Shown: one piece after another, positions 6,877 to 8,710 of the stretch | Layout: each line of letters starts with the position of its first letter | Position numbering within the stretch: the first letter of the stretch is position 1 | NCBI RefSeq assembly: GCF_000419585.1 | Contig: NZ_ATTH01000001.1 | Location: forward strand, 3,015,001-3,079,000 | Direction of reading: 5' to 3' | DNA length: 64,000 nt | Source: Salisaeta longa DSM 21114 | GTDB lineage: Bacteria > Bacteroidota > Rhodothermia > Rhodothermales > Salinibacteraceae | Notes under the pieces: model-generated | The model's input: only the letters and a program-made list of their open reading frames with translations | Database searches by the model: none | What the model was told of the DNA's origin: nothing | Translations under genes and position numbers: made by a program

Positions 6877-6902
6877 AAAAAAGAGGGCTGGTGCAAGCCC
6901 TC
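6877..6902 (-). terminator. Intrinsic terminator for the CRISPR transcript (minus strand)
   Basis: Read on the minus strand: GAGGGCT, loop TGCACC, AGCCCTC, then six Ts. A perfect 7-bp GC-rich stem with an immediate T-run is a textbook rho-independent terminator. The only minus-strand transcription unit just upstream is the CRISPR array (and anything reading through from 8711-10708). Confidence 0.75.
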
Positions 6903-7034
6903 ACCCTTCAGGTCGGGGGCTACCCATACCCCGATACCGGAATATTAGACGCGGCACCAAACGCTTGAAACCGGACGTGGAAGAGTTTGGGCCTGAAGGA
7001 TTGCAAAAACTTTTTAGAGGACGAGCGGTCTCCG

Positions 7035-7256
7035 ATGAACGGGAGTCTAATACCGACCCACTTGGGTAGCACGACGAGGCGGTTGCGGCGGCTGACCGAT
7101 CGGCTGGAGCGTACCAGCCCGCTGATGCGGGACCTGGCCGAGGTGATGCTTGAGGGCGTAGGGGACAACCTGAGACGCGAGGCGGAGGCCGGCGTGAGTA
7201 ACAACAAGCCCTACGCGGCGCTCATGCACGGTCTATTGGGGCCATCGTCTCTTTAG
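7035..7256 (+). pseudogene. Possible remnant of a phage virion morphogenesis (tail-completion) gene
   Basis: A 73-residue frame reads MNGSLIPTHLG then RRLTDRLERTSPLMRDLAEVML, which recalls the N-terminal part of phage virion morphogenesis proteins (Mu gpG / P2 gpS group, PF05069). Its last ten codons run through the degenerate CRISPR repeat at 7230-7246, so the natural C-terminus is missing. It is short, has no phage neighbours, and the match rests on my memory of the family pattern. It could be a chance ORF. Confidence 0.3.
7230..7246 (-). repeat. Degenerate trailer-end CRISPR repeat
   Basis: Plus-strand GGTCTATTGGGGCCATC matches both ends of the 28-nt repeat but lacks 11 nt from the hairpin centre and has one extra mismatch. 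It ends exactly 33 nt before the first perfect repeat, the same spacer length as all others, so it is a decayed repeat and not a chance match. Confidence 0.8.
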
Positions 7257-7279
7257 TGACGGACTTCGCCTGCGCTTTC

Positions 7280-8527
7280 GGTCTATCCCCGCGTGTGCGG
7301 GGTCATCTTTTTTTTCTCTAAACCGCCAAAACCCATGGACGGTCTATCCCCGCGTGTGCGGGGTCATCGTCGAAGAGGTACGCGCGTGCTGCCGGCGCTG
7401 CGGTCTATCCCCGCGTGTGCGGGGTCATCTTTTTTTTCTCTAAACCGCCAAAACCCATGGACGGTCTATCCCCGCGTGTGCGGGGTCATCGCGACGGCTG
7501 AGCGCGTGGTGGCGTACATCTACGGTCTATCCCCGCGTGTGCGGGGTCATCGTGTGCCGGTTGCGGCGCTTGTTCGTGTACTCGGGTCTATCCCCGCGTG
7601 TGCGGGGTCATCATTTTCTTCGGCCCACAGGTCAACTTCGCCATCGGTCTATCCCCGCGTGTGCGGGGTCATCGCCTGCATGTCTCGAAGCTCAAACAAA
7701 ATCATGGGTCTATCCCCGCGTGTGCGGGGTCATCATCACGGAGGTGCTGGGCGACGAGGTGAGCCGCGGTCTATCCCCGCGTGTGCGGGGTCATCACACA
7801 AAAAGACTTCGCTTCTTCGTCGATGCACGGTCTATCCCCGCGTGTGCGGGGTCATCCCGCTTACGTCCTCGGGTCGCTGCACGATCTTCGGTCTATCCCC
7901 GCGTGTGCGGGGTCATCGGGTCTATCGTTACGGATTCGTCCGGCGTGCGAGGTCTATCCCCGCGTGTGCGGGGTCATCGCACCACCCAATTACACACAAA
8001 CGCCGAACGTCGGTCTATCCCCGCGTGTGCGGGGTCATCAGGCGGCGCTTCTTCTTGGGCTCACTGGCCCAGGGTCTATCCCCGCGTGTGCGGGGTCATC
8101 GTGTCCAAGCGGGGGCGAGGGTGGTGACTGAGCGGTCTATCCCCGCGTGTGCGGGGTCATCGCAGCCGCGCGAAAAGGTCGGCGCCAGCTTCGAGGTCTA
8201 TCCCCGCGTGTGCGGGGTCATCGCACGCCGACAAGGGAAAACTCCGTCATGTCGCGGTCTATCCCCGCGTGTGCGGGGTCATCGTTTTTGCGAACCTGTC
8301 CACGACGGTGGACGGCGGTCTATCCCCGCGTGTGCGGGGTCATCCCAACGTCAAGCCTGCGGCGGTTTCGGCGGCAGGGTCTATCCCCGCGTGTGCGGGG
8401 TCATCCTGCCATGACTGTCCCTCTACTTGTTCGTTACCGGTCTATCCCCGCGTGTGCGGGGTCATCACGGAGCGCCGCAGGCCGATCCGTCGCCCGGAAG
8501 GTCTATCCCCGCGTGTGCGGGGTCATC
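7280..8527 (-). CRISPR. Type I-E-like CRISPR array, 21 perfect repeats and 20 spacers
   Basis: Twenty-one copies of a 28-nt repeat (plus strand: starts GGTCTATCCCC, ends GCGGGGTCATC, with a CCCCGC/GCGGGG stem) start at 7280, 7341, 7402 and then every 61 nt to 8500. All 20 spacers are 33 nt. The reverse complement (GATGACCCCGC...GCGGGGATAGACC) matches the E. coli type I-E repeat family and sets transcription on the minus strand, leader at the right. The spacer base next to the repeat is mostly C on the plus strand (G in the transcript), as expected for a PAM-derived 29th base. The first and third spacers from the trailer (7308-7340 and 7430-7462) are identical. No cas gene is in the window. 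Confidence 0.98.
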
Positions 8528-8710
8528 CCTGCGCCGATATGTCACGGCACAGGTGTTTCGATCCCAGTATATCAAAGAACATCTGCGAATGCAAGCTCGC
8601 CTTCTGTCATTCCGGCAGCTTATACAAGATGTTGAGTGGTGCGTTCTCTTGCAAGTGCCACGCGCTGGCGTGGATGTCTCTACGATTCTTTAGTGGCGAT
8701 CGGCCGCGCC
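8528..8710 (-). promoter_or_regulatory. CRISPR leader region
   Basis: The 183 bp between the last repeat and the decarboxylase stop contain no gene. They hold the array promoter (8566-8594) and a small GC hairpin CCACGC-GCTG-GCGTGG (8658-8673) without a T-run, which could weakly end the decarboxylase transcript. Confidence 0.6.
8566..8594 (-). promoter_or_regulatory. sigma70-like promoter of the CRISPR array
   Basis: On the minus strand, TTGCAT (8594-8589), a 17-bp spacer and TATACT (8571-8566) form a near-consensus promoter. Transcription would begin about 30 nt before the leader-proximal repeat (ends 8527). Position and direction agree with the repeat orientation. Confidence 0.75.

Follow-up and report, generated by a model that had tools for sequence, protein, structure and literature searches.

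A remote CRISPR array of Salisaeta longa is very probably the second array of one type I-E system

CRISPR arrays can lie far from the cas genes that serve them. In the type I-F system of Zymomonas mobilis, isolated arrays share their repeat with a distant cas locus (PMC5294841). For orphan arrays in other species, regulatory or anti-cas roles have been proposed (PMC8616872). Here we describe an array of Salisaeta longa DSM 21114, found in a stretch of 64,000 nucleotides (the window, C1:3015001-3079000) of a 3.4 Mb genome. The initial annotation took it for a self-contained orphan type I-E unit, which either uses cas proteins encoded elsewhere, has lost its own, or serves a regulatory role. Positions without a contig prefix are those of the window.

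The array locates at 7280-8527 on the minus strand and consists of 21 identical 28-nt repeats (GGTCTATCCCCGCGTGTGCGGGGTCATC) and 20 spacers of 33 nt. Direct repeats, unique spacers, a constant period of 61 nt and a repeat that folds into the expected hairpin (-12.7 kcal/mol, z -4.5) characterize it as a type I-E array. Nineteen of the 20 spacers are distinct. The exception is W18, which equals W20; the two copies (7308-7340 and 7430-7462) are one spacer apart, a pair on which the initial annotation was silent. The crRNA strand is the minus strand, and the leader starts at 8528. The 21 perfect repeats, the minus direction and the type I-E assignment given by the initial annotation are all supported.

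At the trailer end, a decayed repeat (GGTCTATTGGGGCCATC, 7230-7246, minus strand) matches the full one at 15 of its 17 bases and has an internal deletion of 11 nt. Exactly 33 nt separate it from the first full repeat, and among about 20,000 random positions of the window not one reached its score. The 33 nt in between (7247-7279) are probably a 21st and oldest spacer. Further along the minus strand, a hairpin followed by a T run (GAGGGCT-TGCACC-AGCCCTC-TTTTTT, 6902-6883) resembles an intrinsic terminator. Both the decayed repeat and the terminator had been proposed before. We also notice an 89-codon open frame on the plus strand (6987-7256), which crosses the decayed repeat and stops within the oldest spacer. 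Its likeness to phage tail-completion proteins is weak and not significant (PHROG 26, E 0.023; Pfam PF05069, E 0.18; tblastn, E 0.6), and we do not assign it a phage origin.

The leader (8528-8618, minus strand) is 84% identical to that of a cas-linked array elsewhere in the genome over about 91 nt, while the sequences beyond the far edge of the two leaders are unrelated. Similarity confined to the leader is expected of a functional leader rather than of a general duplication. Inside it, we observed the promoter-like pair TTGCAT-17-TATACT (8565-8593, minus strand); the sister leader has the pair as TTGCAT-17-TATAAT, at an unchanged spacing of 17 nt. The pair had been called a near-consensus promoter. 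It is present, but this wording is overstated: TTGCAT and TTGACA have 3 of 6 positions in common, and a promoter scan with a threshold of 9/12 reported no promoter. The window array has a leader, together with a probable promoter and a probable terminator.

The leader ends in a palindrome (CCTGTGCCG-TGACATAT-CGGCGCAGG, 8528-8553, minus strand) that abuts the first repeat and is identical in the sister leader. It is possibly an integration site or a regulator site. In several relatives, the leader end of the array carries a variant such as CCTGTGACACAATGTCGCAGG; the leaders of other relatives retain only TGACA...TGT.GCAGG. By a simple stem count, the palindrome is clear in about half of the leaders and absent in others, and we do not regard it as common to the whole family.

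When the window was searched with the genome's 13 type I-E cas proteins, no match was better than E = 0.02, and whole-genome family searches (Cas1, Cas5, Cas7e, Cas3 HD) gave no match inside it. As first noted, no cas gene is found over the roughly 7 kb left and 55 kb right of the array. The initial annotation had named a complete type I-E operon directly beyond the window as a finding that would speak against it; the same 13 proteins found nothing convincing in the 10 kb to the left. With no cas genes within 10 kb (the window plus 10 kb beyond its left end), the array is an isolated, or remote, one.

Elsewhere on the same contig, however, 1.44 Mb from the window array, a complete type I-E operon adjoins one further array with the same repeat (C1:1577747-1579611); both lie at about 1.578-1.589 Mb. 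This sister array has 31 repeat copies, 29 of which are exact and two of which carry a mismatch; further copies within 3 mismatches were found nowhere else in the genome. Next to it follow cas2e, cas1e, cas6e, cas5e, cas7e, cse2, cas8e and cas3, all of them open reading frames on the minus strand. Cas2e, Cas1e, Cas6e, Cas5e, Cas7e and Cse2 pass their NCBIfam cut-offs, Cas8e is recognized by the PADLOC Cas8e profile (3.5e-91), and Cas3 retains the HD, GSGKT, DEVH and SAT motifs. Of the options first offered, cas proteins encoded elsewhere is the right one, and a loss of the array's own cas genes is without support. The term 'orphan' is misleading given the operon at 1.58 Mb; in the strict sense, it denotes an array without a matching cas operon anywhere in the genome. 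'Self-contained' misleads as well: despite the leader and the probable promoter and terminator, the cas genes are needed in trans. Two other CRISPR loci are present in this genome: a type III-like locus (C1:930000-949000) with a Csm3-like gene, its own Cas1 and the repeat GTTTCAATCCTCTTGGAATGGAGGCAAGACTTCCGAC, and a type I-B-like locus (C1:988000-1007000) with Cas6, Cas8b, Cas7, Cas5, Cas3 and the repeat ATTTCAATACCTCAAAGGTGCGATTAAAAG.

We conclude that one type I-E system very probably has two arrays, of which the window array is the second; it would be transcribed where it lies, and its RNA would be processed and used in trans. The repeat is identical to that of the cas-linked array, the leader is common to both, and the orientation relative to the leader and the spacer length agree as well. 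With no spacer in common, each array has its own history. Across both arrays, the first spacer base is A in 0 of 50 spacers, while A makes up 20% of the spacer bodies; the type I-E arrays of relatives have A at this position in 2 of 232. This rule, which both arrays and the relatives follow, suggests that acquisition is PAM-linked in the same way. Taking the window array by itself, chance would leave first-base A absent with a probability of 0.01, which supports the reading of one system and does not decide it.

Transcription, Cas6e cleavage, Cascade loading, Cas3 recruitment and Cas1e-Cas2e acquisition make up the established type I-E scheme. Applied to the window array, the leader would give rise to a minus-strand precursor RNA, and Cas6e of the distant operon would cut each repeat hairpin, yielding 61-nt crRNAs. 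These would load into Cascade (Cas8e, Cse2, Cas7e, Cas5e, Cas6e), which would then find invading DNA and recruit Cas3. New spacers would be inserted by Cas1e-Cas2e at the leader end of the window array, as at the sister array.

As to the targets, window-array protospacers were found neither in phage and plasmid collections nor in genomes of the order. In viral contigs, the exact 23-24-nt cores of six window-array spacers had no match, and the repeat itself had no exact match. One sister spacer, A23 (C1:1578202-1578234), agrees at 32 of 33 bases with Salisaeta icosahedral phage 1 (NC_017983.1, 6540-6572), at the start of ORF 10 and with GAAA directly upstream. All other spacers of both arrays scored no better against this phage than shuffled controls. 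Matches to mobile elements amount to one of the 30 sister-array spacers, to the phage, and none found for the window array.

The lack of found targets, together with the one duplicated spacer pair and the decayed trailer repeat, might point to a relic, that is, an array once used and now silent or no longer acquiring spacers. Decay of the trailer-end repeat, however, is usual in active arrays. Moreover, all 21 repeats of the window array are identical, in contrast to the less uniform cas-linked array, and its leader is conserved, including the -10-like element and the palindrome beside the first repeat. The uniform repeats bear out the earlier argument against long disuse, and we consider a relic improbable. 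A regulatory or anti-cas array, with crRNAs directed at host genes or at cas operons entering the cell, has precedent in the proposals for orphan arrays mentioned above (PMC8616872), but we regard this option of the initial annotation as very improbable here, because the 20 window-array spacers match the chromosome no better than chance (best E 0.04, 24 nt at 92%), none matches in the type I-E cas locus, and the best of the weak partial matches in related genomes (E 2e-4) belongs to a sister-array spacer.

Returning to the system with two arrays, we notice an additional feature at the distant locus, outside the window. A second set of cas3, cas8e, cse2, cas7e and cas5e, without cas6e, cas1 and cas2, is placed immediately upstream of the complete operon. 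The region C1:1579707-1595986 therefore combines a tandem pair of diverged type I-E interference modules, 33-51% identical to each other, with a single cas6e-cas1e-cas2e. A relative (G079:C48) has the same double layout, orthologous module by module at about 54-71%. The second type alone, joined to cas6e-cas1e-cas2e, is present in G012 and G003, and the first type alone, as judged by Cas5e, in G018 and G008. A Cas5e tree, which includes one long-branch row, splits the two module types with 98/99 support. Cas7e occurs in 35 of 394 sampled genomes of the phylum; among the matches listed, which do not include G079, two copies within 10 kb are seen in this genome only. No description of such a tandem arrangement came up in a literature search, but this is weak evidence.

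The frames of both modules are open and the two Cas3 proteins retain their motifs, so that either module, judging from its genes, could use guides from the window array. We tentatively suggest, as a possibility somewhat short of even, that the single Cas6e cuts the crRNAs of both arrays and that these load into two tandem diverged type I-E Cascades, each with its own Cas3. If this is true, the retained double Cascade might widen the PAM range or resist anti-CRISPR proteins. The tandem modules with their common processing and acquisition set are a less usual feature than the window array, and the locus would lend itself to a test of guide sharing between paralogous Cascades. The window array alone matters little: the immune memory to which its 19 distinct spacers contribute is of a known kind, and once its cas genes are located, the orphan unit is no longer a puzzle.

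A like separation is seen among relatives: G012 has a short array of the same type near 33 kb of its contig and type I-E genes near 1.12 Mb. The left and the right flank of the window array both occur in relatives, though at separate places. For a neighbouring protein, the closest named relatives come from Salinivenus (71%).

Remote arrays with the repeat of a complete cas locus far away are already known, and the Salisaeta array is a further case. As in Zymomonas mobilis (PMC5294841), scattered arrays have the same repeat and varied spacers, with a complete cas locus at a distance; unlike there, the system is of type I-E and one array adjoins the cas operon. With the second system compared, the Salisaeta arrays have in common the 61-nt period, the CCCCGC...GCGGGG repeat hairpin and one cas operon for more than one array. 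They differ from it in the base beside the 28-nt core, which is G, C or T here and a fixed G there, in the palindrome at the leader end, and in the far greater distance between array and cas genes.
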